Shown here piece by piece: positions 1,533-20,838 of a stretch of 22,159 nt of DNA. Positions within the stretch are counted from its first letter, which is position 1. The number at the start of each line of letters is the position of its first letter. A program made the translations under genes and the position numbers. Below the pieces are notes generated by a model. It searched no databases. It had not been told where the DNA came from and worked only from the letters and a program-made list of their open reading frames with translations. Source of the DNA: a virus; the IMG/VR virus record IMGVR_UViG_3300006870_002710, positions 1-22,159 of that record; one strand, given 5' to 3'.

Positions 1533-1697
1533 TTGAAAAAGGGTTAAGTAAAAGTTCGGGGGAACGAACCAGTTATTAGTATTTCCGTGCCACCCTCCGG
1601 CTCGGATATTAGAGACGTGATTTAGACTCCCTAGAGGTCTCGGTTTACGGGGAGTTTACAATAGATTAAAAAACGTTACGTTTCTTAACCCATTGAC
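1533..1697 (-). promoter_or_regulatory. Structured 5' leader of psbA
   Basis: The predicted leader is about 165 nt long. Visible inverted repeats are GTTCG/CGAAC at 1554-1558 and 1565-1569; a stem at 1585-1605 (CCG-A-GCC / GGC-A-CGG with one A-A mismatch) whose loop is GGAGGGT on the mRNA; and ACTCCC/GGGAGT at 1626-1631 and 1650-1655. The SD-like GGAGGG sits in that loop, about 60 nt from the start codon, while no SD lies next to the ATG. The Rfam PhotoRC-II motif is known upstream of psbA in marine cyanobacteria and phages; whether this leader belongs to it needs a covariance search. Confidence 0.5.
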
Positions 1698-1703
1698 TTA
1701 TTT

Positions 1704-1732
1704 AGTATAACAGAATCCAGAGGACCTGTCAA
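1704..1732 (-). promoter_or_regulatory. Sigma70-type promoter for psbA
   Basis: On the minus strand TTGACA (1727-1732) is separated by exactly 17 nt from TATACT (1704-1709). The start of transcription is expected near 1697. The -10 continues into TATACTAAATAA, so a late-promoter-like CTAAATA overlaps it; the same 12 bases recur at the promoter at 6548-6576. Confidence 0.85.
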
Positions 1733-1745
1733 GGGGTCTAATGGG

Positions 1746-17509: not shown

Positions 17510-18313
17510 TTAGCAAAAATAAGTAAGGTAGATAAAGTCTTCTAGGACTTCCATTTTTTTAGCAATCTCTAGATTATCTTTGATTGCTTCCATTTTACTG
17601 TGATAGAGTTCGTCTGAAATATAGAACTCATCAGTAAGATCAATTATACCATCTTTATTGAAATATTTTCCAATATCAGGAGCTCCAAGATAAACTGGAA
17701 TAGTTCCTGTGGCAAAACAATCTAGAAGTTTTTCAGTGAAATAGGTTTCATATTGTCCATTCTCAATCGCAACTGAGAACATGTAGTCACATAGTCCTTC
17801 TTCTTTGTGAAGGATTTCGTTGAATCCCCGACCATAAAGATCAACCTGATCTTTTAGCCTTTCAACCCATTCAAGACGAGTTGCATGTCCTTTGCACATT
17901 CTTTTATTAGATGCGATCATAGAAATCATTTTTGATTTCTCATAAATCTTGGGTTCTTTAATCCAGAAACCCTGTGCGGGACACCACTTGAACTTTGGAT
18001 CAATTGCAAGCAACTCTTGATTGTGAGTAAAGATTGCATCAAATGTATCCAGATATTGTTTTGGATTGATCTTTACTGCATCCACAATTTGTGGTGTAAT
18101 ATATCGTGACTCTAGGAGCCAAGCGTACTTTGGTCCTGGTTTTGGATCTATCCATGCCCAAGGGAGAGTGCTATCAATATAAAATGTAGCCTCTCCACCA
18201 TCCTTTACCCATTCAACATATTTCGATTCTTTACCATGAACAGAATATCCTTTATTACCATTTGTTAAATGGGTAAAAGTATCTCCTACAAGATTAAACT
18301 TTACGCGCTGCAT
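17510..18313 (-). CDS. GT10-like alpha-1,3-fucosyltransferase
   Basis: The 267-aa protein has the GT10 C-terminal donor-binding block DYMFSVAIENGQYETYFTEK, with TEKL at 193-196, followed by LLDCFATGTIPVYLGAPD. This block binds GDP-fucose in bacterial and animal alpha-1,3/4-fucosyltransferases. The N-terminal acceptor domain is shorter than in Helicobacter enzymes. Start 18313 is supported by GAGGAG seven nt upstream; an in-frame start at 18355 would lie deeper in the epimerase gene. It overlaps that gene by 20 nt. Direct coupling to a GDP-sugar epimerase suggests the donor is made by the neighbour. Confidence 0.9.
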   Translation of the reverse strand: MQRVKFNLVGDTFTHLTNGNKGYSVHGKESKYVEWVKDGGEATFYIDSTLPWAWIDPKPGPKYAWLLESRYITPQIVDAVKINPKQYLDTFDAIFTHNQELLAIDPKFKWCPAQGFWIKEPKIYEKSKMISMIASNKRMCKGHATRLEWVERLKDQVDLYGRGFNEILHKEEGLCDYMFSVAIENGQYETYFTEKLLDCFATGTIPVYLGAPDIGKYFNKDGIIDLTDEFYISDELYHSKMEAIKDNLEIAKKMEVLEDFIYLTYFC

Positions 18314-19391
18314 TAATTTGCTCCTCAATCCACTCATATGTCTTACGGATGCCATCTTCTAGAGTCTGAGAGTAATCCCAATCAAGTTTTTCACGAATCA
18401 GATCGTTATTGGAATTACGACCACGTACACCCTGAGGAGCATCGAGTTTGTAAATCTTCTGAACGACCTTACCAGAAACCTTGGCCGCAGTCTCAACCAG
18501 TTGATTGATAGTCACCATTTCTTCTGAGCCAATGTTCACTGGTCCCATAAAGTCTGAGTCCATCAATCTTCGAGTTGCTTCAATGCATTCGTCAATGTAC
18601 AAGAAGGAACGAGTCTGTAGACCATCTCCCCACACTTCGATAGCTCCACCTGTCTCTGGTAGGTAAGCAACCTTACGGCTGATTGCAGCTGGCGCTTTCT
18701 CTCTTCCACCGTCCCAGGTCCCTTCAGGGCCAAAGATATTGTGATAGCGAGCAATCCGAACAGGAATGCCGTGGTTGCGATTGTAGGCAAGATAGAGACG
18801 CTCACTGAAAAGTTTCTCCCATCCATACTCAGAGTCGGGGTTTGCTGGATATGCTGAATCTTCACGGCAATCGGGATTATCGGGGTCTAGTTGATTGTGT
18901 TCTGGATACATGCAAGCAGAACCAGAATAGAAGATCTTGGTAGGTTGATCTAGAGCAGGACGAACACACTCATGATTTGCAGGTTCCCCATCGAAAGTTT
19001 CATTGAGCTTACGAACTTCCTCAAGAACATTCAAATTGATGCTACATGAGTTGTGCATGATGTCTGCATCGTTCTCTCCAGTGAAAACAAAACCTGCACC
19101 GCCCATATCAGCAGCAAACTGATAGATCTCATCAAAAGGACGAATAGCACGATAAGGTACTGAATTATAGAAATTCCCCAACTCACCTTTGAACTGGATT
19201 ACACGACGCACAAAATTTGCATCACGAAGATCACCCTGCACAAACTCATCAGCAGCTGAATCAGAGAACTCAGGATATTTAAGATCTACACCACGAACCC
19301 AATATCCTTCGGACTTGAGTCGTTTGACCATGTGACTACCAATAAATCCACCTGCACCAAGAACCAGTGCAGTTTTTGTATTCTCAAACAT
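18294..19391 (-). CDS. GDP-mannose 3,5-epimerase-like enzyme
   Basis: This is a 365-aa short-chain dehydrogenase/epimerase. NAD is bound by GAGGFIG (residues 12-18). The catalytic set matches plant GDP-mannose 3,5-epimerase (GME): Cys160 in SGSACMYPE, Tyr189 and Lys193 in EYGWEK, and Lys232 in GGREKAPAA. Blocks AADMGGAGF, ARYHNIFGPEGTW, WGDGLQTRSF and VRGRNSNN are also GME-like, more so than GDP-fucose synthase-like. GME turns GDP-D-mannose into GDP-L-galactose (and L-gulose). It heads the sixteen-gene glycan operon behind the promoter embedded in a terminator, and overlaps the GT10 gene by 20 nt. Two insertions, near residues 60-85 and 130-150, are absent from the plant form as I recall it. 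GDP-mannose must come from the host. Confidence 0.9.
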   Translation of the reverse strand: MFENTKTALVLGAGGFIGSHMVKRLKSEGYWVRGVDLKYPEFSDSAADEFVQGDLRDANFVRRVIQFKGELGNFYNSVPYRAIRPFDEIYQFAADMGGAGFVFTGENDADIMHNSCSINLNVLEEVRKLNETFDGEPANHECVRPALDQPTKIFYSGSACMYPEHNQLDPDNPDCREDSAYPANPDSEYGWEKLFSERLYLAYNRNHGIPVRIARYHNIFGPEGTWDGGREKAPAAISRKVAYLPETGGAIEVWGDGLQTRSFLYIDECIEATRRLMDSDFMGPVNIGSEEMVTINQLVETAAKVSGKVVQKIYKLDAPQGVRGRNSNNDLIREKLDWDYSQTLEDGIRKTYEWIEEQINAARKV

Positions 19392-19417
19392 TTCTTTCTT
19401 TATATTCCTTCCTATGT

Positions 19418-19446
19418 ATAATACTAAAAAAGACCCTTGTTGTCAA
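19418..19446 (-). promoter_or_regulatory. Sigma70-type promoter of the glycan operon, inside a terminator
   Basis: TTGACA (19441-19446), 17 nt, TATTAT (19418-19423) on the minus strand, start expected near 19411, about 20 nt before the epimerase ATG. The -35 box lies in the loop and arm of the terminator hairpin, and the spacer is the hairpin's second arm and T-run. No other promoter was seen for the 11-kb operon. Confidence 0.8.
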
Positions 19447-19456
19447 GGGTCTTTTT
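19427..19456. terminator. Bidirectional-type terminator, 13-bp hairpin
   Basis: AAAAAGACCCTTG (19427-19439) and CAAGGGTCTTTTT (19444-19456) form a perfect 13-bp stem with a TTGT loop and A/T runs on both sides. It can end the 2OG-oxygenase transcript on the minus strand. Nothing is transcribed towards it on the plus strand. Confidence 0.9.
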
Positions 19457-19507
19457 GGGTTCAGGCTCGCCAGTTGGCATATTTAATGACCCTTACCAAC
19501 GGGGTCA
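19457..19507 (-). ncRNA. Candidate pseudoknotted RNA upstream of the epimerase
   Basis: On the minus strand GTTGG (19500-19496) pairs with CCAAC (19477-19473). The loop GGGTCA (19492-19487) can pair with TGAACCC (19463-19457) with one bulge, forming an H-type pseudoknot. An alternative hairpin TGACCC/GGGTCA spans the stop codon of the previous gene (19502-19507 with 19487-19492). The wcaG RNA motif is known from cyanophages upstream of wcaG-like epimerase and light-induced genes, so membership should be tested. The structure lies upstream of the predicted start site, so it could act only in read-through RNA. Confidence 0.35.
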
Positions 19508-20272
19508 GTTTTTCCAAAGAAAACTAAAAGGACATTTAGATTCTTTTTCTTGTTGTCCAAACATAAAGTCCTTAGACATAATTGGACTCAATCTCTTTAA
19601 GTTAATATTTCTATGAATTTTTAATTTGACATCTTTTGGTGGTTCTTTTTTTATCAATCGAAACTTGTCATCCATATTATTTGAGTAAAAACAAATTTCA
19701 TATATTGGATCACCTCTTTTGATGATTACAGATTTGCTAGTGTCATAAACATCATATGCAAATGAAATTGTTCTTGGCCAAGAAGAAAGGTTGAACCAAC
19801 CATTAACTATGGTTATGTTATTTTTTGCCGATGCATTTGGATATGCTCTTTGTTCAATCCAAATGTTTTTTTCTTTAGTCCAAAAAAGAAAATGAGGTGC
19901 TGTCAATTGCATCACTAACTTTTCTGGATCTGTTAGATACCATTTAGGACTTTCAAACGTTGGTCCAGTCAATACATTATAAGTATCTCCACTTATGTGA
20001 GGACTATTGACAAAGATTTCTCCAGTTTCTTCAAATTTGCTAAAGTCAAAATCAAATCTGATATCAATAGGACTGCGAACTATAAAAGTTCTTTTTGCTT
20101 TGTGTGACCAAGCGGGACATTCGTAATAGGATACTCTTTTATCGGCACTAAAAATTGCAGATTCAATAGGAAAAGAAAATCTATCATCAGCCAAAACAGA
20201 TTTTTCTGGTTCAAGCAGTTCATCATCTGTACCAAATCCAGACTCTGTTGGATAATAATAGATTGTTTTCAT
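19505..20272 (-). CDS. Unknown 255-aa protein
   Basis: This soluble protein with many aromatic residues probably has an all-beta core (RTFIVRSPIDIRFDFDFSKF, NITIVNGWFNLSSWPRTISF, IKRGDPIYEICFYSNN). There is no signal peptide. The start is two nt after the oxygenase stop (TGATCATG) without a Shine-Dalgarno, so it is coupled to the oxygenase and may work with it. A Lys/Arg-rich stretch near the C-terminus (KKEPPKDVKLKIHRNINLKR) could bind nucleic acid or membrane. I do not recognise a family. Confidence 0.82.
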   Translation of the reverse strand: MKTIYYYPTESGFGTDDELLEPEKSVLADDRFSFPIESAIFSADKRVSYYECPAWSHKAKRTFIVRSPIDIRFDFDFSKFEETGEIFVNSPHISGDTYNVLTGPTFESPKWYLTDPEKLVMQLTAPHFLFWTKEKNIWIEQRAYPNASAKNNITIVNGWFNLSSWPRTISFAYDVYDTSKSVIIKRGDPIYEICFYSNNMDDKFRLIKKEPPKDVKLKIHRNINLKRLSPIMSKDFMFGQQEKESKCPFSFLWKN

Positions 20273-20274
20273 GA

Positions 20275-20838
20275 TCAGAAATTAAACAGTGTAGAGATAT
20301 TGAAAGAAATTGTACATCTTTCTTTCTTTGAAGGAATTACATAGTGAAGTAGATTTGCTGGAAAAATTATTACTGTTCCCTCTTTCATTTCTTTGGTATC
20401 AATTTCCTTGTGCAAATAAAACATTTGCGATAGGTCAGTAAACATGGTATTGTTCACTTCGTTAATATCCAATAGATATGCGGCAGAAAATGTTGTAGAA
20501 GTATTTTGATGAGTATGTGCTTCTTGATATCCACCCTCTGGATAATAATTCCACCAAATATCTTCAAGATGGCTTTCGTAAGGTGGTATTGCTAATTCAA
20601 CCTCCGAAAACATTTCATCCAAAGGTTTCCATACAATAGAATCTAGAATCCAATCTTCTCTTATAAAATCATTTGAATATTTAATGGAAGTATAAACATA
20701 ACTCTTCCAATGTATTGTGTAGTCTTCTTTATTTTCATTATAAAGATCTTTGATTTGCGGAAGAAGATAATCTTTAATTTCTTTGTGGTTTGGAACCTCA
20801 GTCCAAAAAATAAAAGGAGCGTTAAATTTTTTATGCAT
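20275..20838 (-). CDS. 2-oxoglutarate/Fe(II) oxygenase
   Basis: The 187-aa enzyme has the layout of the 2OG-FeII_Oxy_5 family common in T4-like cyanophages. The iron ligands are probably His108 or His110 of EAHTHQN and His165 of PANLLHYV, with Arg174 for 2-oxoglutarate binding. WWNYYPEGGYQEAHTH and GTVIIFPANLLHYV are the family blocks. These enzymes use oxygen and 2-oxoglutarate to hydroxylate a protein, sugar or small molecule; the substrate is unknown here. No Shine-Dalgarno is seen. It seems to be transcribed with the two small genes upstream from the promoter at 21345-21374. Confidence 0.85.
   Translation of the reverse strand: MHKKFNAPFIFWTEVPNHKEIKDYLLPQIKDLYNENKEDYTIHWKSYVYTSIKYSNDFIREDWILDSIVWKPLDEMFSEVELAIPPYESHLEDIWWNYYPEGGYQEAHTHQNTSTTFSAAYLLDINEVNNTMFTDLSQMFYLHKEIDTKEMKEGTVIIFPANLLHYVIPSKKERCTISFNISTLFNF

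Follow-up and report, generated by a model that had tools for sequence, protein, structure and literature searches.

A putative sigma70-type promoter nested in a terminator hairpin upstream of a viral nucleotide-sugar epimerase gene

Hairpin and promoter elements in the epimerase upstream region

Judging from its sequence, a 39 nt element upstream of a nucleotide-sugar epimerase gene probably constitutes a compact junction of an intrinsic terminator and a sigma70-type promoter, which would insulate the downstream genes and then restart transcription. The window, i.e. the complete record of 22,159 bases from a virus of marine cyanobacteria that was analyzed, carries the genes around this junction all on the minus strand, and the element lies in a 113 nt intergenic gap between the phrog_17480 gene and the epimerase gene. 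Along the minus strand, this gap is composed of a conserved block, the hairpin, T6 and TATTAT, followed by the ATG at 19391 (Table 1). A sequence-only reading of this DNA had described a 13-bp hairpin with TTGACA across arm and loop, which was confirmed at base resolution. The 17 nt spacing to TATTAT also held, whereas the spacer, previously taken to be the second arm with the T-run, consists of the last loop base, the 3' arm and TAG. Similarly, the hairpin itself was recovered, but the gene directly upstream of it is phrog_17480 and the oxygenase gene, whose transcript it had been proposed to end, is located one gene further up.

Folded alone, the hairpin RNA reached -17.1 kcal/mol and none of 200 shuffled sequences folded as well. 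With this stable GC-rich hairpin followed by a U-tract, the element has the composition of an intrinsic (Rho-independent) terminator. The promoter matches the consensus at 11 of 12 positions with a 17 nt spacer and the epimerase ATG 26 nt downstream, and thus has the hexamers at 16-18 nt spacing before a gene that define sigma70-type (SigA) promoters. Promoter-like sites in the region numbered 40 compared to 35.2 in shuffles (sd 7.1), and are thus not above shuffles. This count speaks for the element being a terminator only, with a promoter match that arose by chance in an AT-rich spacer, a reading that we nevertheless regard as very unlikely in view of the recurrence described below. Since a promoter match in AT-rich DNA alone proves little, terminators were surveyed across genomes.

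Table 1. Features of the junction and its flanking genes (positions in the window).
Feature	Position	Strand	Basis
Terminator hairpin, 13 bp, loop ACAA	19427..19456	-	sequence and RNA fold
Hairpin 5' arm AAAAAGACCCTTG	19456-19444	-	sequence
Hairpin loop ACAA	19443-19440	-	sequence
Hairpin 3' arm CAAGGGTCTTTTT	19439-19427	-	sequence
T6 run: terminator U-tract, also within promoter spacer	19426..19431	-	sequence
Putative -35 hexamer TTGACA: TTG in 5' arm, ACA in loop	19441..19446	-	sequence; TTG kept at related sites
17-nt spacer: last loop base, entire 3' arm and TAG	19424..19440	-	sequence
Putative -10 hexamer TATTAT	19418..19423	-	sequence; -10-like hexamers pile up 18 nt from loop centre in relatives
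Predicted transcription start	19411	-	spacing alone
Nucleotide-sugar epimerase, downstream gene	18294..19391	-	PF01370, phrog_540
phrog_17480, upstream gene, no assigned function	19505..20272	-	phrog match
2OG-Fe(II) oxygenase, next gene beyond phrog_17480	20275..20838	-	PF13759, phrog_81
Conserved block from the upstream stop codon (overlapped), possible pseudoknot, ends in TGGCGAGCCTGA	19461..19507	-	sequence comparison

In the proposed mechanism, RNA polymerase arriving from phrog_17480 would transcribe the hairpin and the U-tract and stop at about 19426. The same DNA as a duplex would act as promoter for a sigma70-type holoenzyme (host SigA), with the -35 in loop and arm, the spacer formed by the 3' arm and the T-run, the -10 right behind the T-run and a start near 19411. 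The new mRNA would lack the hairpin and carry a leader of about 20 nt ahead of the epimerase ATG. The sugar cluster would be insulated from upstream transcription and gain a start of its own at minimal cost in DNA, and the junction could remain with its gene through swaps of upstream genes. The end of the T-run lies about 18 nt from the loop centre. Since a 17 nt spacer and half of a -35 hexamer together take up 20 nt, a loop-borne -35 brings the -10 to where the U-tract ends.

Nested promoters at cyanophage terminators

The survey covered 13 complete cyanophage records and phage T4, with terminators defined by a stem of at least 7 bp, at least 4 G-C pairs and T at 6 or more of 8 positions, and a promoter was called nested when it matched at least 10 of 12 positions and its -35 was centred on the hairpin loop. 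In the 13 cyanophage genomes, 23 of 216 terminators carried such a promoter, compared to a mean of 1.16 (sd 1.96, maximum 13) for 200 permuted motif pairs. Permuted motifs contain near copies of the real motif, hence maxima of 13 here and of 21 and 78 elsewhere, and the means are the useful figures. Nested sites were found in S-SKS1 (6), P-SSM4 (4), S-T4 (3), Sf-CH5, P-SSM2, S-SM2 and P-HM1 (2 each), Bellamy and S-RSM4 (1 each), and none at this threshold in Syn9, S-PM2, S-SSM7 and P-SSP7 (4 of the 13 cyanophages). Lowering the threshold to 9 of 12 matches gave 29/216, and 30 sites were counted when the -10 letters were not fixed, against a permuted mean of 6.2 (maximum 21). The comparison with other cyanophage intergenic regions, which the sequence-only reading had suggested, thus recovered the same nesting.

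Phage T4 had no nested promoter at any of its 24 terminators at similar G+C content (0.353 vs 0.354-0.411 in the cyanophages), and an 800 kb portion of the host WH7803 likewise gave none at 42 terminators; with 60% G+C, this genome is not a composition-matched control. Among the listed IMG/VR loci that matched a control pattern unable to pair, 4/91 terminators were nested (two of them identical; permuted 0.36). Stems of at least 8 bp were present in 31 of the 121 listed IMG/VR pattern matches vs 2/117 for the control pattern, whose four unpaired bases were counted in its favour; stem extension beyond the pattern was the measure used. A stem-selected set was not used as evidence; one of its 26 members (L041) is a coding match and not a true site.

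Loop-centred -35 hexamers with a -10 at fixed distance thus exceed permuted motifs by far and are lacking at the 24 T4 and 42 WH7803 terminators, which argues against a terminator with a fortuitous promoter match. As far as sequence comparison goes, it is the nesting and its recurrence that exclude chance, and not the promoter match itself. The stems at nested sites are mostly unrelated, apart from one shared by Bellamy and S-SM2 and that of the window shared by S-T4 and Sf-CH5, and range from 7 to 14 bp with loops of 3-8 nt. The recurrence with different stems and fixed geometry supports the earlier proposal that one element may end one unit and start the next. Nested junctions also precede other genes, including psbA (S-SKS1), genes for a restriction endonuclease and a helicase (P-SSM4), and hli03 (S-SM2).

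Among the other cyanophage terminators, 54/216 had a -10 but no matching -35 and 106/216 had none. In a further 27/216 the terminator leads straight into a late-type motif (TATAAATA or CTAAATA), with which the T-run is apparently shared, as in 3/24 of T4. Promoters also accumulated 35-45 nt upstream of loop centres, but in part these derived from conserved gene ends and were dropped as a class. A host origin of the element was set aside: one stem pattern matched 0/151 genomes of the family of WH7803, and the 42 terminators in the 800 kb of WH7803, a control of differing composition, lacked nesting.

Promoters of the phage N4 virion RNA polymerase are recognised as an extruded DNA hairpin, and hairpin-dependent promoters of this type are found in phages and plasmids. 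The window element resembles them in that promoter and hairpin share bases, and a perfect 13-bp palindrome surrounds the -35, as would be expected if a DNA cruciform regulated the promoter. At the threshold of 9 of 12 matches, however, 29 nested promoters were on the strand of the T-run RNA and only 4 on the opposite strand (23 vs 3 at 10 of 12; 216 terminators). Such a bias agrees with termination at the RNA level but not with a cruciform, which would be symmetric. Moreover, stem and loop lengths vary, and part of the orthologous epimerase promoters lack the hairpin. Unlike in N4-type promoters, duplex hexamers are kept here, while the hairpin is optional and free in sequence. The pattern is not that of a hairpin that is needed and independent of transcription direction; control by extrusion, which had been suggested before, is not supported by these data and appears extremely improbable.

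Conservation at epimerase and wcaG RNA loci

S-T4 has the window element at 96% identity over 101 nt, and Sf-CH5 and Sf-CH8 have it at 91%, in all cases before the epimerase gene and in Sf-CH5 despite a different upstream gene. The S-T4 record (MH412654) contains a second matching place for the 113 nt query. Among the best 80 epimerase-bearing IMG/VR loci, 32 were nested and the strict call failed in 48; of the latter, 6 share the hairpin but have TTGCAT as a weak -35, a promoter-like match lacking a hairpin occurs in 30 (some of these may be due to chance), and 12 have neither. Epimerase sites were also picked solely by a T-run with a -10 behind it, so that the -10 letters belonged to the selection; of the 34 distinct sequences among the matches listed, 31 had a stem of at least 8 bp, and in 30 of these 31 the loop centre was 18.0-18.5 nt from the -10. 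Hairpin-less promoters and loop-to-(-10) distances together indicate that at the epimerase site the promoter looks like the more constant part, with an optional hairpin of free sequence. In one contig (L079:95-140), the element of the window precedes another kind of sugar gene (dTDP-glucose dehydratase type), and the junction perhaps moves between cassettes.

An Rfam scan that included the window found the wcaG RNA (RF01761) immediately before the hairpin at 14 of 18 related loci. The block in the window itself gave no wcaG match above the Rfam gathering score, but it shares the TGGCGAGCCTGA end motif with the 3' end of wcaG and likewise precedes a gene of the exopolysaccharide/sugar class found behind wcaG in cyanophages. 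It can form pseudoknot pairings between TGACCC and GGGTCA and between GTTGG and CCAAC. Comparison of five sequences revealed two both-sided changes in the first helix and none in the second, and 24 of 500 shuffles reached the score, so that the case for the pseudoknot is weak. Window positions 19461-19524 (minus strand) scored 17 bits to the c-di-GMP-II-GCG riboswitch (cut-off 47.9) via UGGCGAGCC, the letters in which wcaG also ends.

An independent scan by the wcaG 3' end, applying no hairpin or promoter criterion, yielded at least 120 stretches, 117 of them usable and 107 distinct. Among these matches listed, 80/107 had a terminator with a nested promoter (-35 down to 3/6, sum at least 9). 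The rest comprised 2 with a weak -35 and a correctly spaced -10, 4 with a terminator and a late motif, 1 with a tandem promoter, 9 with a terminator only, 3 with a promoter only, and 8 with neither, two of which run into tRNA-like sequence. Many wcaG-linked loops read TTGCAT, which matches the -35 consensus at 3/6 positions. Terminators with a stem of at least 7 bp were present in 95 of the 107 listed sites, and in 77 of these 95 a -10-like hexamer started 17-20 nt from the loop centre (70 at 18), compared to a permuted mean of 23.8 in a set that includes the real motif itself (maximum 78). In S-PM2 (~122950-123050) and S-RSM4 (~29450-29560), a short hairpin comes behind the wcaG region and leads into tRNA-like sequence instead of a promoter junction.

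Covariation was scanned over all column pairs in 43 non-redundant of 101 listed sites, whose selection used the -10 letters and the T-run but neither the stem nor the -35. The six pairs with the strongest covariation fell on the axes of one hairpin and were paired in 72-95% of the 43 sites, and T, T and G at positions -23 to -21 were kept in 38, 38 and 31 of them while the remaining stem varied. The hexamers are conserved beyond the needs of the stem, with TTG kept inside a varying stem and the -10 at a constant position. Two superposed constraints predict this combination of pairs that vary freely around TTG and conserved letters within it. The best reading is therefore that the same bases are probably constrained both as RNA stem and as DNA promoter; the retained TTG is not expected of a terminator only, and the covarying stem together with the conserved -35 and -10 further supports the view of one element with both functions.

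wcaG has been placed in potential 5'-UTRs of exopolysaccharide and high-light genes and listed as a riboswitch candidate, as the accessible part of the original description states (Weinberg 2010, PMC2864571). This status and its location directly before the hairpin would suit an arrangement in which wcaG, or the pseudoknot block of the window, is an aptamer, the hairpin a switchable terminator and the promoter a by-pass. However, the hairpin stems vary freely while wcaG is conserved, which argues against a conserved antiterminator pairing between aptamer and terminator, and by inspection none was found. Furthermore, P-SSM2, P-SSM4 and P-HM1 have nested junctions without a wcaG match. We therefore consider a riboswitch unlikely. 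Kissing between TGCA of the wcaG tail and the TTGCAT loop was rejected, as by eye the tails GTGCATG and GAGCCTG each go with different loops.

Unlike its 5'-UTR assignment, wcaG is usually located upstream of the nested promoter and of the predicted start; an epimerase mRNA from that promoter, if used, would therefore lack wcaG. For 85 full copies listed, the distance from the nearest upstream ORF end to the start of wcaG was at most 20 nt in 24 and at most 40 nt in 48 (median 33), figures that are rough since ORFs were called mechanically; 37 copies leave room for another promoter and 30 lie inside a same-strand ORF. In Bellamy, wcaG occupies 157834-157933, between an upstream CDS with its last base at 157835 and the epimerase gene, which starts at 158006. 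We tentatively propose, as a possibility that we rate well below even chances, that cyanophage wcaG is the 3' end of the preceding transcript instead of a 5'-UTR riboswitch, and that stop codon, wcaG, terminator and nested promoter form one conserved module in which nesting hands polymerase between operons and wcaG acts on 3'-end formation, RNA stability or read-through.

Relation to known systems and further sites

T4-like phages have terminators and promoters between operons that are listed as separate signals, with no mention of nesting in the accessible parts of these reports (Nolan 2006, PMC1524935; Sullivan 2010, PMC3037559); the latter also covers cyanophage terminators and sigma70-type promoters. 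The junction shares with such borders an intrinsic terminator between co-directional units and a sigma70-type promoter for the next one, and differs in its loop-borne -35, found at 0/24 T4 terminators. In the accessible open-licence literature, including PMC10134795, PMC1524935, PMC7698491, PMC5780444 and PMC2988021, no description was found of systematic nesting or of wcaG upstream of a sugar-gene promoter, and the words promoter and terminator are absent from the main text, as available, of two cyanophage wcaG papers (PMC9964418, PMC9602691).

According to the accessible parts of two studies, bacterial polymerase can in vitro remain on the DNA once it has terminated and initiate again from nearby promoters (Harden 2020, PMC6978322; Song 2024, PMC11347151). 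In the junction, the termination site and the predicted start are only about 15 nt apart, and the terminating polymerase would cover the promoter, making coupling or exclusion possible. The terminated polymerase might thus stay on the DNA and restart at the nested promoter, which would couple the downstream operon to upstream transcription or shut it under heavy upstream traffic. Those studies likewise concern a promoter close to a terminator, but with E. coli polymerase and separate sites. As compactness accounts for the same geometry, we regard such a hand-over as conceivable but rather doubtful, and prefer the compact junction that insulates and restarts. An influence of polymerase passage through the element on initiation, as suggested in the sequence-only reading, is plausible, and that interpretation as a whole is partly supported.

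If the promoter is active as predicted, its bases would serve two codes at once, the RNA stem and the DNA promoter, and the rule of a loop centre about 18 nt from the -10 offers a simple finder of operon borders in cyanophage genomes. Many sugar genes would then have their predicted start behind the wcaG RNA, making the standing guess on this orphan RNA testable, and the junctions could be natural minimal-distance templates for asking whether recycling of terminated polymerase is relevant in cells.

Upstream of psbA (453-1532), the window contains a PhotoRC-II RNA (RF01717, 72.6 bits; 1571-1667, minus strand) between the gene and its likely promoter. The latter (~1700-1745, minus strand; GACCCCTTGACAGGTC...TATACTAAATA) reads TTGACA-17-TATACT. 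Its -35 occupies the loop of a 4-bp stem that lacks a T-run, and its -10 is joined to the late motif CTAAATA. The psbA promoter of S-SKS1 is fully nested, and the psbA upstream region of the window is perhaps a decayed nested junction. A promoter match of 12/12 with an 18 nt spacer and no hairpin was found at 21374-21345 (minus strand). Three IMG/VR contigs (L049, L060, L106) carry GCCCCTTGACACCCAAGGGGC with an 18 nt spacer. L049 had no match among phage records; the ORFs downstream in the three contigs resemble prophage antirepressors, and these sites perhaps represent independent nesting outside cyanophages.
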